Translations under genes and position numbers: made by a program | The notes under the pieces: model-generated | Database searches by the model: none | The model's input: only the letters and a program-made list of their open reading frames with translations | Told to the model about the DNA's origin: nothing | Part shown: positions 28,295-60,160 of the stretch, in pieces | Numbering within the stretch: the stretch's first letter is position 1 | Layout: each line of letters starts with the position of its first letter | Source of the DNA: Dolichospermum sp. DET69 | GTDB lineage: Bacteria; Cyanobacteriota; Cyanobacteriia; Cyanobacteriales; Nostocaceae | DNA: 64,000 nt | Direction: 5' to 3' | Assembly: GCA_017355425.1 (NCBI GenBank) | Contig: CP070233.1 | Location: forward strand, 970,501 to 1,034,500

Positions 28295-28709
28295 ATGAAA
28301 AATGATTTTGTGTCTAAGGGAAGGTCGGTCAGTGACTTAAAAGTACATCTAGTTTTAACGACAAAATATAGACGCAAAGCCTTTACTGGAGAGATGTTAC
28401 AGCGGCTGCACGTCATTTGAGAAGAACTATTGGTTAAATGGGATTGCAAACTTGTGGAGTTCAACTCCAGAAGAAGATCATATCCATTGCCTGTTCCAGT
28501 ACCACCCGGACTTAGAATTAAGCAAACTGATAAATAATCTTAAATCAGTTTCTTCTAGGAAATTACGCCAAGAATTTTCAGAACATTTAGCCAAAATTTA
28601 CTGGAAAGATGTTTTTTGGAACGGGTCTTATTTTGTTGCTAGTTGTGGCGGGGTAACTATCTCAACGTTACGAAAATATATTGAAAATCAAAATTCACCG
28701 GAAGAATAA
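28295..28709 (+). pseudogene. tnpA (Y1 transposase), stop codon and frameshift
   Basis: Start MKNDFVSKGRSVSDLKVHLV and LTTKYRRKAFTGEMLQRLHVI, then TGA at 28418-28420, then a frame change near 28465 into EDHIHCLFQYHPDLELSKLI and VSSRKLRQEF. The HUH motif is present as HIH and the catalytic Tyr lies in LRKYIENQ, so only the stop and the frameshift inactivate it. The full length of ~138 residues is normal for TnpA. Confidence 0.88.
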
Positions 28710-33875: not shown

Positions 33876-33908
33876 AAGGACGGGCTTTCGGGTTCGTCCT
33901 TTTTTTTG
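33876..33908 (+). terminator. Rho-independent terminator of chlN
   Basis: Stem AAGGACG (33876-33882) with CGTCCTT (33895-33901), 12-base loop, then a run of T. It lies 16 bases after the chlN stop. Confidence 0.88.
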
Positions 33909-33979
33909 GACGCAGAGACGCAAAGAGAAGAGGAATGTTATAATTGGTAAGTTATGCTTTTGATTTAGTGGATAGAGCT

Positions 33980-34411
33980 ATGTCAGTAACTCAGCCCTAA
34001 AGGGACTGAGCTTGTAAGAAATTGCCAGCTGTACTGACCAGTCTAAGTCTTCACTGACTACGTTTTTTGAGTCACGACACCCCGGAATGCGTAGCTAGTT
34101 CCCTGCTCTGTCATTTGCAATTAAACAGTTTTAAAGTCACTGAAACAGTGTTGCAAGTTTAAAAAGCTCTTAAAACATTGACGAAGCTAACATCACCCCG
34201 AAAGGGAGGCACATCGCGTGCAACACATTATGCGTACAGAGTTGGGAATTTTGAATCGGTAATTGTCCCGTTGAAAGTACATTACAAAAGTACACCGAAT
34301 TTACCAACTCCAAGGCGGTAATGAAAAAATATTCAAGGCGGTTAAAACCGCACGAGTCGTTTCCCTCTCAGCACGCTTTGTGTCTGAGTTTCCCACTTAC
34401 CGGGTATTTTT
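33980..34411 (+). ncRNA. Structured RNA X, HEARO/omega-RNA-like, directly before a DUF29 gene
   Basis: The 5' hairpin CTCAG-CCCT-AA-AGGG-A-CTGAG (33990-34010) is followed by CTTGTAAGAA. The 3' part reads GTCGTTTCCCTCTCAG, a hairpin CTCAG-CAC/GTG-CTGAG (34367-34388), then TTTCCC and ACCGGG, and ends at ATGAAT. RNA Y at 59.8-60.2 kb has the same two ends with compensating changes. Other stems are visible inside, e.g. GCGGTT/AACCGC near 34340. The layout and the ATGA boundary recall HEARO/IscB omega RNAs, but no IscB gene follows. The family name is inference; the structure is seen. Confidence 0.6.
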
Positions 34412-34888
34412 ATGAATCATCAACTATATGAACAAGATTTTAATCTTTGGCGAGAAACAATCATTACACAAATCAAAGAAAAACATTTTAATGATATTGA
34501 TTGGGAACATTTACTATTAGAACTGGATGATATGGGTAAATCGGAAAAACGGTCTTTCTTGAGTAATTTAACAATTTTAATTGCTCACTTACTCAAGTTA
34601 ACTGTTCAAGCTGATGCTCCTGAAATGATGAAAGGAAGTTGGTACAGTTCTATTACTGAACATCGTTTTAGAATTAAAAAAGATTTACAAGAAAATCCTT
34701 CTTTTAGAAATTATTTTTATGAAGTAATTTTCATAGCTTATGCTGATGCTAGAAAACTGGCAATTAAAGAAAGCAAAAATGCTAAGTTAGGAGTGAGAAA
34801 ACCAGATGAATCAGAATATCCTCTTGATTTACCTTTTACTTTAGAGCAGTTATTAGATGAAGATTTTTATGGAGATATAGTTGAATAG
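34412..34888 (+). CDS. DUF29 family protein
   Basis: A 158-residue DUF29 protein: YEQDFNLWRETIITQIKEKH, DIDWEHLLLELDDMGKSEKR, then a helical LIAHLLKLTVQ segment and a C-terminal LPFTLEQLLDEDFYGD. The family is abundant in cyanobacteria and its function is not established. The ATG directly abuts structured RNA X, so expression may depend on the RNA or on read-through. A related gene lies at 56.7 kb. Confidence 0.88.
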   Translation: MNHQLYEQDFNLWRETIITQIKEKHFNDIDWEHLLLELDDMGKSEKRSFLSNLTILIAHLLKLTVQADAPEMMKGSWYSSITEHRFRIKKDLQENPSFRNYFYEVIFIAYADARKLAIKESKNAKLGVRKPDESEYPLDLPFTLEQLLDEDFYGDIVE

Positions 34889-51736: not shown

Positions 51737-53946
51737 GTGCGATTCGTTGTGAGTGAATCACGGTATACAAGTCCGTAAATAACCTCACCAACTTAACCCG
51801 ACAACGGGGAAAGTTGAACTCTCGGTCTGATATGGGTGTAAGTCCCATCTACCAGACTCAGGTATGACTCCCTATCTGCCTACGATGACCCGACTCGGTT
51901 TCGGGAGGTCGAAGCTAGGAACAGGGCGCAATCAGACATCCGTTGTGGGGTGACACTGGTGCTAACGGGGAGTTCCTATGGTGAAACAGAGCCTAGAAAA
52001 GCAACCTACTTGTAAGCAGGACACAACATCAAAAACTTGACTTCATTGGAGTTAATTCCCGCCGCATATTGGTCTCAATAGCGGCAAGAGTCCAGGGAAT
52101 CCAGTAGTTGAATTGGCTACACCTAACGGAACTAACAATCAACCGAGGGAACGAATAAAAACGGACTGAGGGTCTGAGGGCGGTCGAACCCTAAGTAGGC
52201 TGGACGAGCAGCGGAATCCCTTCAATCCGGGTAGGACAGACCGTAATTGGTCTGAGGTGTTCAGAATACACAAACGGTCGCAGAGCATGATTAGACACAG
52301 AGACAACTCTAGTGAATCCTGGAAGAAGTTACCTTGGAAGAAATTCCGCCGTAACCTATTTCGCCTACAAAAGCGCGTGTACAAAGCGGTTCAAGTTGGC
52401 GACAAGCGCAAAGCTAAGTCCCTGCAAAAGCTGATTCTGAAATCTACCGCAGCGAGATTACTGGCAATCCGTCAAGTATCACAGCTAAATGCTGGGAAAA
52501 AGACTGCAGGAATTGATGGCAAAAAGTCTCTTACCTTTAAGGAACGCTTCGAGCTTAATGAACTGCTAAAAGCATCCGTTAGCAACTGGAAACACCAGGA
52601 ACTAAGAGAAATACCAATCCCCAAAAAGGACGGTACTATGAGGATGCTGAAAATCCCCACTATTGCTGATAGGGCTTACCAATGCCTTATCAAATACGCA
52701 TTAGAACCAGCGCACGAGGCAACCTTCCACGCCAGGAGCTACGGGTTTAGGACGGGGCGTTCAGCGCATGACGCGCAGAAAATGCTGTTCCTGAATCTAA
52801 ACTCTCAAGCCAACGGAATAGATAAAAGAGTTATAGAACTCGATATCGAAAAATGCTTTGACAGGATAAACCACACCGCCATCATGGATAAACTCATTGC
52901 TCCTTATAGCATAAGACAGGGAATATTCCGATGTCTCAAAGCCGGAGTTAATCCAGAATTTCCAGAACAAGGAACACCGCAAGGCGGGGTGGTAAGTCCA
53001 CTACTAGCTAACATCGCCTTAAATGGGATTGAAAGTATTCATAGATATCATGTGATACCTAGCTACAGAATTACAGACAAAACCCCAAGGAAAAATATTG
53101 TTGAACCATCTATCCGTTACGCGGATGATATGGTAATAATACTCCGTCCTCAAGACGATGCCACAGATATACTTGACAAAATCAGTCAGTTCCTAGCAGA
53201 GCGGGGAATGAAAGTCAGTGAGAAAAAGACAAAGCTAACCGCCACGACAGATGGATTTGACTTCCTGGGCTGGAATTTCAAAGTCCAGAATAACGGAAAA
53301 TTTAAAAGCGTTCCATCAGTGGACAACTTTAAATCTTTTCGCAAGAAAGTAAAACACATCGTCAACAACTCGAATTATGGTGCTACCACAAAGGCTGAGA
53401 AATTAGCCCCTGTAGTTAGAGGTTGGAGGAACTACCACCGCTTCTGCAAGATGGACGGGTCAAGAAACTCGTTATTCCACATCGAAACAAGAGCTTTCAG
53501 GGTATTCAATAAGGAAACAAAACAGAATCGCCATACCAGTAAACAATTACTAGATAAAGCGTTTCCATCAGTTCCTTACTCCGAAAACAAACATATCAAT
53601 GTTAAAGGTGAGAAATCACCCTATGACGGAGATTTGAGTTATTGGAGCGAGCGTAACAGCAAGCTCTATAACAACGATACCTCTAAAGCCCTCAAACGGC
53701 AAAACCATAAATGTGGTCATTGTGGACTGAAATTGGTTAGTGATGAGAAGGTACACTTACATCATATAGATGGAAACCACCAAAACTGGAAACCTAAAAA
53801 CCTTCTAGCCATTCATGAAAGCTGCCACGATTATATCCATAAGAGCAAAAGCGAAAGCTAAGAACGTCGGAAGCTGGGTGCAGTGAAAGCTGCACGCCCA
53901 GATTTAACAGAGAGGGGCGGGAAATAATATTCCCCCTCGACTCTAC
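51737..53946 (+). mobile_element. Group II intron with its own reverse transcriptase
   Basis: The 5' end GTGCGATTC fits the GUGYG start. A ~520-base structured region precedes the maturase gene. After it, domain V is AGCTGGGTGCAG-TGAAAG-CTGCACGCCCAG (53872-53904) with the AGC triad, and domain VI is an AGAGAGGGG/CCTC-A-CTCT helix with a bulged A (about 53909-53944). The 3' end falls at about CTACCAAC. It lies wholly between hisZ and the ferredoxin gene, in their orientation. The 3' limit is accurate to a few bases. Confidence 0.88.
52287..53861 (+). CDS. Group II intron reverse transcriptase/maturase with HNH domain
   Basis: The intron-encoded protein, ~524 residues from MIRHRDNSSESWKKL (an ATG ten codons earlier is possible). 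RT blocks: KKTAGIDGKKSLTF, IPIPKKDGTMRMLKIPT, DIEKCFDRINH, GTPQGGVVSPLLANI and the active site IRYADDMVI (near 277). The maturase X domain (RGWRNYHRFC) follows. The C-terminal HNH endonuclease has CGHC (near 475), HLHHIDGNHQNWKPKNL and CHDYIH. All motifs are intact, so it may support splicing and retrohoming. The chloroplast-like (CL) class seems likely. Confidence 0.94.
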   Translation: MIRHRDNSSESWKKLPWKKFRRNLFRLQKRVYKAVQVGDKRKAKSLQKLILKSTAARLLAIRQVSQLNAGKKTAGIDGKKSLTFKERFELNELLKASVSNWKHQELREIPIPKKDGTMRMLKIPTIADRAYQCLIKYALEPAHEATFHARSYGFRTGRSAHDAQKMLFLNLNSQANGIDKRVIELDIEKCFDRINHTAIMDKLIAPYSIRQGIFRCLKAGVNPEFPEQGTPQGGVVSPLLANIALNGIESIHRYHVIPSYRITDKTPRKNIVEPSIRYADDMVIILRPQDDATDILDKISQFLAERGMKVSEKKTKLTATTDGFDFLGWNFKVQNNGKFKSVPSVDNFKSFRKKVKHIVNNSNYGATTKAEKLAPVVRGWRNYHRFCKMDGSRNSLFHIETRAFRVFNKETKQNRHTSKQLLDKAFPSVPYSENKHINVKGEKSPYDGDLSYWSERNSKLYNNDTSKALKRQNHKCGHCGLKLVSDEKVHLHHIDGNHQNWKPKNLLAIHESCHDYIHKSKSES

Positions 53947-59076: not shown

Positions 59077-59576
59077 TTACTCAAATAGTGACTCTAAATC
59101 TCGATAACCACTAGCAATACGAGTAATATTAATTCCTATTTCCTCTTCTTGAGGATAGTAAAATATAATGTAGTCATCTATAATAAAACCACGAAGATTT
59201 TTTGCTAGTCTTCCATAACTTTTACCCATACTTGGAAAACTAGCAACTAATTTACACTTACTTCTAATTTTATCAAAAAGTTGACTAGCGGCTTTTGGAT
59301 TACTTTCAGAGGGAACAGGGAACGGGCAACTTTCTAACAGGAAAAACTCATGTTTAAAAACATGAGATTGAAATAATGACACTGTTTTTTTCGGGCTACG
59401 CATCTTGTAAAAACATCTTTTTTTTGACTGAAGCTCTAAACTGGTGCAAATGAGTGTTTCTTATCTGTTCCCTGTTCCCTGTTCCCAGTTAAGAGTTCCC
59501 TTCTTCTGTTACCAAGATATTCACAAATTTCTTCTAAATCTTGAATAGCTTCATCAGAAAATGAGTATTTACCCAT
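59077..59576 (-). pseudogene. parE-type toxin gene split by a ~200-bp insertion
   Basis: The gene starts with ATG at 59576, overlapping the antitoxin stop, and reads MGKYSFSDEAIQDLEEICEY and LGNR before entering CTGGGAACAGGGAACAG repeats and a stop at 59436. The rest resumes at about 59310: ESNPKAASQLFDKIRSKCKL, VASFPSMGKSYGRL, DDYIIFYYP and ITRIASGYRDLESLF. Joined, the two parts give ~99 residues, normal for ParE/RelE. The open frame at 59077-59403 includes insert-derived N-terminal residues. Confidence 0.85.
59310..59509. mobile_element. ~200-bp insert bounded by inverted STRR arrays
   Basis: One tip carries CCCGTTCCCTGTTCCCT (near 59312-59330, as read in complement) and the other TGTTCCCTGTTCCCAG near 59465-59490 in the opposite sense, so the insert ends are inverted copies of the heptamer (T)GTTCCC. 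It interrupts the parE-type gene. No transposase is present. Confidence 0.6.
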
Positions 59577-59829
59577 TGTGTAATTCCTCTTCTATTTGTT
59601 TAATTTTCGCTTGTAGTCTAGCAAAAACCACCTCACCATCTGTTACTTGTCCATTATTAATCTGTTCAGTCCCCACCGCTATTTTTTCCTTTAGTTCCTC
59701 CAGTCTTCTTTCTCTACCTAACAGTAAATTAAAAGCCTCATTCACTGCATCTTCTATATTTTCAAATCGCCCAGTGGCAATATAAGCTTGTATTAACTCC
59801 TCTGTTTCCGGTTTCAGTTGAATATTCAT
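59569..59829 (-). CDS. ParD-type antitoxin
   Basis: An 86-residue RHH protein: MNIQLKPETEELIQAYIATG, RFENIEDAVNEAFNLLLGRE, then a helical toxin-binding tail ending KQIEEELHNG. The stop overlaps the toxin start (ATGGGTAA). The toxin is interrupted, so this antitoxin is now effectively orphan. The start codon directly abuts structured RNA Y. Confidence 0.88.
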   Translation of the reverse strand: MNIQLKPETEELIQAYIATGRFENIEDAVNEAFNLLLGRERRLEELKEKIAVGTEQINNGQVTDGEVVFARLQAKIKQIEEELHNG

Positions 59830-60160
59830 AAAACCTCGCGGTATGCGGGAAACTCAGTGGCTTTAGCCGGTGAGAGGGAAGCGACACGAGTGAATTTATT
59901 CACTGTGGTATTTAAATGCTGATTTTTGAATGGATATAATCCCGGGAACCAGCAAACCCGTTCAAGTCCCCTCGCCCAACTAATCCAAAATGTCTTGTCT
60001 TTAACCAACGACTTAACAAACAGTCTTGCAGATAATCCAAACTGGGGAAGTATTCGGAAGTGCGGATCAGGATTAGTCTCAATGGGCTAGTCGCTGCTTG
60101 CGTTGTAAAGTTTGTTCTTTACAAGCTCAATCCCTTTAGGGTTGAGTCAGTGACGATATA
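59830..60160 (-). ncRNA. Structured RNA Y, homologue of RNA X
   Basis: The 5' hairpin (minus strand) is CTCAA-CCCT-AA-AGGG-A-TTGAG (60126-60146) then CTTGTAA. The 3' part is GTCGCTTCCCTCTCA, hairpin CTCA-CC-GGCT-AA-AGCC-AC-TGAG (59853-59874), TTTCCC, then ATGAAT. Relative to RNA X, the closing G-C pair of the 5' hairpin became A-T and the 3' stem changed on both sides. The middle is unrelated in sequence and ~100 bases shorter. Confidence 0.6.

Follow-up and report, generated by a model that had tools for sequence, protein, structure and literature searches.

Omega-RNA mini-elements without iscB, with a second conserved RNA domain and frequently in front of start codons, in Dolichospermum sp. 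DET69

The window, i.e., the whole stretch of 64,000 nucleotides of Dolichospermum sp. DET69 that was analyzed, contains a short element directly upstream of a gene encoding a DUF29 protein. This element, designated X, and a second, shorter copy in the same window, designated Y, are compiled with their parts and neighbors in Table 1 (L and G numbers denote loci and genomes). The earlier note on this DNA, which was made from the sequence alone, had described X as a HEARO/omega-RNA-like RNA without IscB that extends from 33980 to 34411 and ends exactly at ATGAAT. A covariance search with the Rfam model HEARO (RF02033) confirmed the assignment: the core of X scored 152.9 bits (E 3.2e-32, gathering score 83), and the match was full-length, spanning model positions 1-211 of 211. 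The right end had been placed correctly, with ATGAAT following from 34412 on, whereas the left end lies two bases further in, at 33982. The element of 430 bp contains no iscB, and the claim that a nuclease gene is missing was thus right for X, but not for the genome, which has seven guided_IscB matches above the cut-off.

Table 1. Positions of the features in the window, and loci of related element types
Feature	Position or loci	Strand	Remarks
TATAAT	33939..33944	+	Candidate -10 box of a promoter that would drive guide and omega-RNA
Left flank of X, 16 nt	33966..33981	+	Expected omega-RNA guide, by analogy
Mini-element X	33982..34411	+	430 bp; bounded by left and right end, with omega-RNA core and second RNA domain in between
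HEARO/omega-RNA core of X	33982..34196	+	RF02033 match; covariation over 33 copies
Left-end hairpin CTCAGCCCTAAAGGGACTGAG of X	33990..34010	+	5' RNA hairpin, presumably the left hairpin for TnpA; read from the sequence
Second conserved RNA domain of X	34197..34323	+	Alignment-based fold; 3' border approximate
Hairpin GCGGTTAAAACCGC of X	34338..34351	+	Both-side changes in 3 of 5 pairs
Right end of X	34367..34411	+	Hairpin 34367-34388, then tail TTTCCCACTTACCGGGTATTTTT
ATGA	34412..34415	+	Insertion target/expected TAM, also start codon of the DUF29 gene
DUF29 gene	34412..34888	+	Start codon directly 3' of X; PF01724, 138.4 bits
ParD-like antitoxin gene	59572..59829	-	Directly after Y
Copy Y	59830..60154	-	325 bp; HEARO below gathering score; blastn to L090-L092
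Solo omega-RNA elements with other spacer	L033, L036, L038, L042, L043, L045, L057, L064-L067
Micro-elements	L227, L233, L241, L250, L257; L096, L100, L124, L142
Elements with reverse-transcriptase-like ORF	L089, L091-L094 (RNA side); L228, L232, L235, L238 (isrB side)

Hairpins are present close to the ends on both sides of X, as is the case for mini-elements of the IS200/IS605 type. The left-end hairpin is helix 2 in the covariation analysis of the HEARO cores. In this analysis, for which 33 of the 43 copies were given, 13 of 66 pairs had changed on both sides, and 63 cells with both-side changes were found, compared with at most 15 in slid controls. Most of these copies are solo, and their covariation favors the mechanism proposed below; covariation among solo copies may, on the other hand, have been inherited from ancestors that carried iscB. 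The right-end hairpins (30 of 43 copies given, 28 of them distinct) had both-side changes in six of 13 pairs and in 34 cells, compared with at most 16 in slid controls, in agreement with the compensating change in the 3' hairpin that had been claimed before. Further pair types were above shuffles neither in the right-end hairpins nor in the HEARO core (99 and 82 of 500, respectively, were as high). The conserved ends are also transposon ends, nearly like those of elements with an IS200-type tnpA. The earlier note had named the lack of a HEARO hit, or ends of a known DNA transposon, as refuting its reading; these two conditions are not true alternatives, as the HEARO match is strong and the ends are transposon ends as well. 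Both of these ends have been retained in X, together with the entire omega-RNA core, and the second RNA domain lies where iscB would be.

X was found to be mobile. Three further elements (L029, L030, L031) share 425 of 426 aligned bases with X and have different flanks (blastn). In G005, a genome of the same genus, the left flank is present with 30 of 30 identical bases and joins straight into ATGAACCATCAAC; this is a precise empty site without duplicated target bases, and the DUF29 homologue begins at the same ATG without X. In 10 other genomes of the genus, a right end was found in front of this ATG in none of 10 loci (L188-L197, matched from the first base of the gene). It follows from the exact empty site that the ATGA next to X is the insertion target and also provides the start codon. 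X is a mobile mini-transposon and a recent insertion, since near-identical elements are present at other sites and the empty site is precise. The proposal that X might be a domesticated leader of the downstream gene is not supported by these results and is unlikely for X itself.

The second copy, Y, occupies positions 60154-59830 of the minus strand and shares both ends with X, as had been observed before. In the 5' hairpin, the change from G-C to A-T was also verified (CTCAG..CTGAG in X, CTCAA..TTGAG in Y). Y matched RF02033 with 39.2 bits (E 9.6e-7) and missed the gathering score of 83. It is 86% identical with L092 over 197 nt and 92% identical with L090/L091 over 134 nt (blastn) and is, judged by these similarities, a diverged solo omega-RNA of the IsrB type. 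The ParD-like gene that follows scored 38.5 bits against TIGR02606 (E 9e-10), under the cut-off of 46.2. Again, the orthologous site was found without the element, in this case in four genomes (L309-L312; 23 of 30 left-flank bases identical). From the empty sites for X and Y it follows that the ATG was already a start codon before the insertion.

With a limit of E<=0.001, HEARO was matched 70 times in the genome of strain DET69 (6.04 Mb, two contigs), and 53 of these matches exceed the cut-off. The right end of 43 distinct HEARO places resembles that of X (L052 led to the end of L066 and was left out as a duplicate), and these 43 copies have 43 different 16-nt left flanks. The only carrier of iscB among them is L027 with 1609 bp, while the remaining 42 have sizes of 358-614 bp. 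The right-end pattern, with up to three mismatches, was found 90 times in the genome, and a reversed control pattern was not found at all. Pattern search and HEARO loci together yielded 94 distinct right ends, which are followed by ATGA in 87 cases, ATAA in five, and GTGA and GTAA in one case each. In other genomes, for which 72 loci were retrieved with a pattern free of ATGA, the right end adjoins ATGA in 71 of 73 cases, CTGA in one and GTGA in another. The main hosts of this family of right ends are Dolichospermum, Anabaena, Nostoc, and a small number of further cyanobacteria. Weinberg and colleagues are said to have noted a preference of HEARO for ATGA/GTGA sites in 2009; the earlier note had mentioned the same, and the counts are in line with it.

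Several related element types were seen. A second solo type has another conserved spacer of 64 nt (about 60-80 nt) with a hairpin resembling CAGGTTT..AAACCTG and element sizes of 358-406 bp. In micro-elements of 52-53 bp, the left end is joined to the right end via one hairpin; they adjoin ATGA, with the exceptions of GTGA (L124, L233) and GTAA (L257). In a further HEARO group (L072-L087), most members have a core ending with GTTGAAGCAAACTTTACTTAGAAATAA and other ends; some of its members adjoin IscBs of 425-436 aa, some stand alone.

As each of the seven IscB matches, one of which has an internal stop, adjoins a HEARO match by coordinates, 63 of the 70 HEARO places have no such iscB alongside. 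The IscB of L027 scored 451.6 bits, and its RuvC and HNH motifs are intact by eye. Its omega-RNA core is identical with that of X at 192 of 215 positions (89%), and near its right end 79 bases match X at 87%. The second RNA domain was not found in L027, neither with blastn nor in the search with a model of the domain (R1).

The situation is different for the transposase. In L244 and L253, an IS200-type tnpA lies directly in front of a right end that is nearly identical with that of X (two mismatches to the X pattern) and has the same kind of hairpin, with TTTTACGC in place of TTTCCCGC. The target is ATAA, not ATGA, and two more right ends of this type (L251, L252) likewise face ATAA; all four have TTTTAC instead of TTTCCC. 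In the IS200/IS605 family the target is recognized by the end sequence, and the joint change of end and target fits this. A tnpA with exactly the end of X was not found in the genome, and because the tnpA elements that were found have the variant end and ATAA, the use of TnpA in trans is proposed for X by analogy only: most likely, it is in this way that a TnpA moves X. Remains of a Y1 transposase gene were also seen in the window at 28325-28691, in two overlapping pieces with a TGA inside one, i.e., a broken tnpA.

The IsrB-type elements are variable in their gene content. Several carry an ORF of 524-534 aa between omega-RNA and isrB that resembles a group II intron reverse transcriptase by eye; such an ORF was also seen behind a broken iscB (L243). 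L090 is of the IsrB type without this ORF. A match to a group II intron (52.7 bits) is located at 53869-53946 of the window.

The second RNA domain of X, with about 127 nt, was not part of the earlier note, nor was the genome-wide bias described below. It is conserved in 42 aligned copies, from 44 that passed the filters, with a mean column identity of 88%. Two small hairpins are followed by a closing stem (CATTAT.GCG...CGG.TAATG), by a stem of AGTTGGG and CCCAACT, and by a pair of inner hairpins. RNAalifold predicted 28 pairs for the 42 copies, six of them with both-side changes, and X alone folds only moderately better than its own shuffles (z -1.98). With 20 longer loci, both-side changes were seen in 11 of the 28 pairs and in 35 cells, compared with at most six in slid controls, in an alignment that was fitted to the R1 model and thus leans towards it. 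Two rows of this alignment (L288, L289) are truncated; without them there were still 11 of 28 pairs, with 30 cells. Within the class, R1 matched in at least 12 of the 291 genomes and in at least seven of 131 genera, values that are lower bounds because of strict filters and the scoring of 10 candidates per genome. In 15 of the 20 longer loci the domain follows a HEARO above threshold, within 1 nt in 14 cases and after 26 nt in one; the other five, one of which is cut by a contig end, have no such HEARO. The HEARO cores of solo elements in other genera scored 118-156 bits.

Other interpretations of the domain were rejected. That it is part of a longer IscB omega-RNA was contradicted by tblastn with three query proteins at E<=0.001, which revealed no IscB or IsrB near the domain in 40 distinct places of the 61 matches listed (30 loci with flanks of about 1.5 kb and the 20 longer ones, with an overlap of 10); the same queries do detect IscB/IsrB in other loci. 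That it is a known RNA was not supported, as no match was obtained in Rfam 15 even at E<=5. L288 and L289 (38-40 bits) had been candidates for ancestors of the domain, but they are truncated copies in front of a gene identified by eye as dnaK. Domain-bearing elements were seen near a match to NsiR1 (L275) and near matches to PsrR1 (L296, L299).

A tree of the cores also spoke against a separate solo lineage: cores with the domain (58), with a short spacer (19), and with iscB (6) are intermixed, in a tree whose bootstrap was not settled, which contains an outlier row (L152), and from which L139, L159, and other elements above 700 bp without IscB were excluded. Because of this intermixing, solo cores stay close to IscB-adjacent cores. 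The intermixing also suggests that 3' modules are exchanged among copies that stay compatible. In nine of the 12 domain-bearing genomes an IscB is present above the cut-off. The exceptions are G290, which is 99% complete and has three copies of the domain, G273, which is 85% complete, and G284, in which IscB pieces are just under the cut-off.

An omega-RNA of IscB carries a guide at its 5' end, 16 nt of which are enough, and a TAM is needed (PMC9640706). When 16 genomes were searched for the 16-nt left flank of X followed by ATGA, the only site without mismatch was the empty site in G005. With up to three mismatches, the only other site was the filled one (two mismatches, ATGA changed to GTCA); matches at three mismatches do arise by chance, as a reversed control pattern matched twice in the 16 genomes. 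An IscB loaded with the RNA of X would, therefore, cut the empty allele alone, because only there do guide and ATGA match, and the filled allele would be safe, because the ATGA next to the guide became GTCA.

These observations can be combined into a proposed mechanism. A Y1 transposase, TnpA, would move X in trans via the end hairpins. The host gene's own promoter would yield an RNA that runs from the left flank, the guide, through the omega-RNA into the downstream gene. For X, the TATAAT at 33939 would start transcription about 30 nt in front of the element and after a terminator-like hairpin (33876-33901); the same bases precede the G005 empty site, and the box was not called in a promoter scan. 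IscB from another locus would load the RNA of X and cut the empty allele at guide plus ATGA, and repair from the filled copy would restore X. Insertion at the ATGA of a start codon would leave the reading frame intact and place the RNA within the transcribed 5' leader. Thus, X is probably a non-autonomous element of the IscB-type branch of IS200/IS605 that borrows TnpA, and possibly IscB, in trans. That IscB uses the RNA of X to cut empty sites may be the case. The idea of a stand-alone guide used in trans, already voiced in the earlier note, is plausible, because the genome holds an IscB whose omega-RNA core is 89% identical with that of X; the three of 12 domain-bearing genomes without IscB above the cut-off count against it.

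The same three genomes also fit another explanation, in which X is a plain MITE or PATE, i.e., merely a substrate of TnpA, and omega-RNA and second domain are passengers that recent common descent and recombination have preserved, without any role of IscB. It would also account for the 39 of 87 ATGA ends in the genome that have no HEARO match within 4 kb upstream and for the 52 bp fusions of left and right end, which sit at ATGA as well. However, the solo elements in other genera have kept strong HEARO cores, and the second domain covaries there in 11 of 28 pairs, a signal that passenger drift should erase. We regard this explanation as unlikely.

The position of X in front of a start codon was found to be common in the family. 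An end was called start-like when its ATGA opens an ORF of at least 60 aa. This was true for 41 of 87 ends in the genome, compared with 505 of 3388 background ATGA sites. The comparable background, in which the left neighbor lies outside ORFs of at least 100 aa, had 120 of 828 (14.5%; p 4e-13 versus 41/87); it was taken from 20 stretches of 20 kb without their edges and is a proxy built on these ORFs. When, in addition, the rejoined empty site had to contain an in-frame stop no more than 35 codons upstream, the values were 22 of 42 HEARO-bearing copies versus 85 of 609, and stratification by the base in front of ATGA gave 22 observed versus 7.0 expected. Also in other genomes the excess was seen, with 23 of 64 ends being start-like compared with 189 of 1266 background sites (p 2.8e-5), after two ends not at ATGA, one with less than 320 bases of flank, and six shared with strain DET69 had been dropped. 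In addition to the 22 of 42 HEARO-bearing ends, 19 of the remaining 45 are start-like: two of six with a HEARO within 4 kb upstream and 17 of 39 without. The omega-RNA is, therefore, not the cause of the excess.

Two further causes were considered and rejected. For a target longer than ATGA, the preceding base was considered. It is a T in 17 of the 22 start-like copies and in five of 20 others, and it thus reflects the start codons rather than a choice of target. A ribosome-binding site carried by the element was not supported by the tails, as ends with GAGGT were start-like in 25 of 53 cases, with GTATT in 12 of 22, and with others in four of 12 (GAGGT versus GTATT, Fisher p 0.62).

The excess could also be due to survival only, i.e., insertions elsewhere were lost and those in front of an ATG were tolerated, which would be compatible with the rest of the explanation preferred here. 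The present counts, with their proxy background, do not separate target choice from survival. Survival only is harder to reconcile with an excess that persists against ATGA sites outside ORFs of at least 100 aa and after stratification by the preceding base, and intergenic sites without a start codon should be no more harmful. It is a serious possibility, if not the one that we favor.

Fifteen of the 22 start-like ORFs have a Pfam family above its cut-off, including a glutamyl-tRNA reductase (hemA), an S41 peptidase, a PspA-like protein, and an OppC-like permease. For the P-II gene at L059 the true start may be further downstream, because the family match begins 17 codons later. At the hemA ATG, an element is located at exactly the same base in strain DET69 and in G011 (L056, L330), while 14 of 16 genomes of the genus, with strain DET69 counted among the 16, have no element there. 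The two elements belong to different subfamilies and are 82-91% alike (two blastn pieces), whereas the element of strain DET69 is 97-98% identical with two other copies in its own genome. Based on these degrees of similarity, the two insertions are most likely independent. In two species, a HEARO element that lacks its 3' half was seen in front of dnaK, a gene identified by eye (L288 in G011, L289 in G006, about 1013-1430), with cores still at 141 and 160 bits; these are candidates for immobilized copies.

The dnaK and hemA examples, together with the 41 of 87 ends in front of start-like ORFs, would be expected if solo elements at start codons altered downstream expression and were kept for this host role. 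This is very improbable for several reasons. X and Y are missing from orthologous sites in relatives, the hemA site is mostly empty, near-identical copies of X are found at unrelated places, and the tail type had no effect on the start-like fraction.

As an iscB-less element with an RNA that may act in trans, X can be compared with several known systems. It resembles HEARO RNA (RF02033) in the full-length model match, the 5' flank in guide position, and the ATGA on the right as expected TAM, but it differs by the absence of iscB and by the covarying domain after the core. With the IscB-bearing ISC element L027 it shares ends of the same kind, the target ATGA, and most of the core; in contrast, L027 has iscB between core and right end and no second domain. 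PATEs and MITEs are terms for short, non-autonomous derivatives of IS200/IS605. X is likewise short and non-autonomous, with end hairpins, an exact target, and many copies, but it has a complete guide RNA and an extra RNA domain and often stands in front of start codons. The IsrB-type elements (L090 and others) have a core in common with Y, whereas X is on the IscB side; the protein of L090 has no HNH stretch by eye. In TnpB homing, as outlined in PMC12477157, a guide RNA directs the cut of the empty site after excision, and repair restores the element. The same logic is proposed for X by analogy, with the difference that X would use IscB, and in trans.

No prior reports of stand-alone omega-RNA elements or of a start-codon bias were found in a literature that was covered in part. 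The second domain, seen only in solo elements among the places covered, and the start-codon bias look new, and an earlier report in Weinberg 2009, Altae-Tran 2021, or Kapitonov 2016 is possible. Judged by Rfam 15, the second domain is a structured RNA without earlier description. A bolder and rather doubtful extension is that omega-RNA elements without nuclease form a lasting class in heterocystous cyanobacteria, with a bipartite RNA made up of the omega-RNA core and the new domain, which would use TnpA and IscB in trans and home to start-codon ATGA, with the promoters of dozens of host genes driving the guides and the domain aiding downstream expression or RNA stability. With two different elements at the same base in two species, the hemA case allows a direct test of the insertion preference and of its effect on a tetrapyrrole synthesis gene. 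If true, IscB-type guide RNAs would persist as independent selfish elements with a conserved RNA architecture of their own, and the target motif ATGA would make the start codons of the host frequent homes for them.
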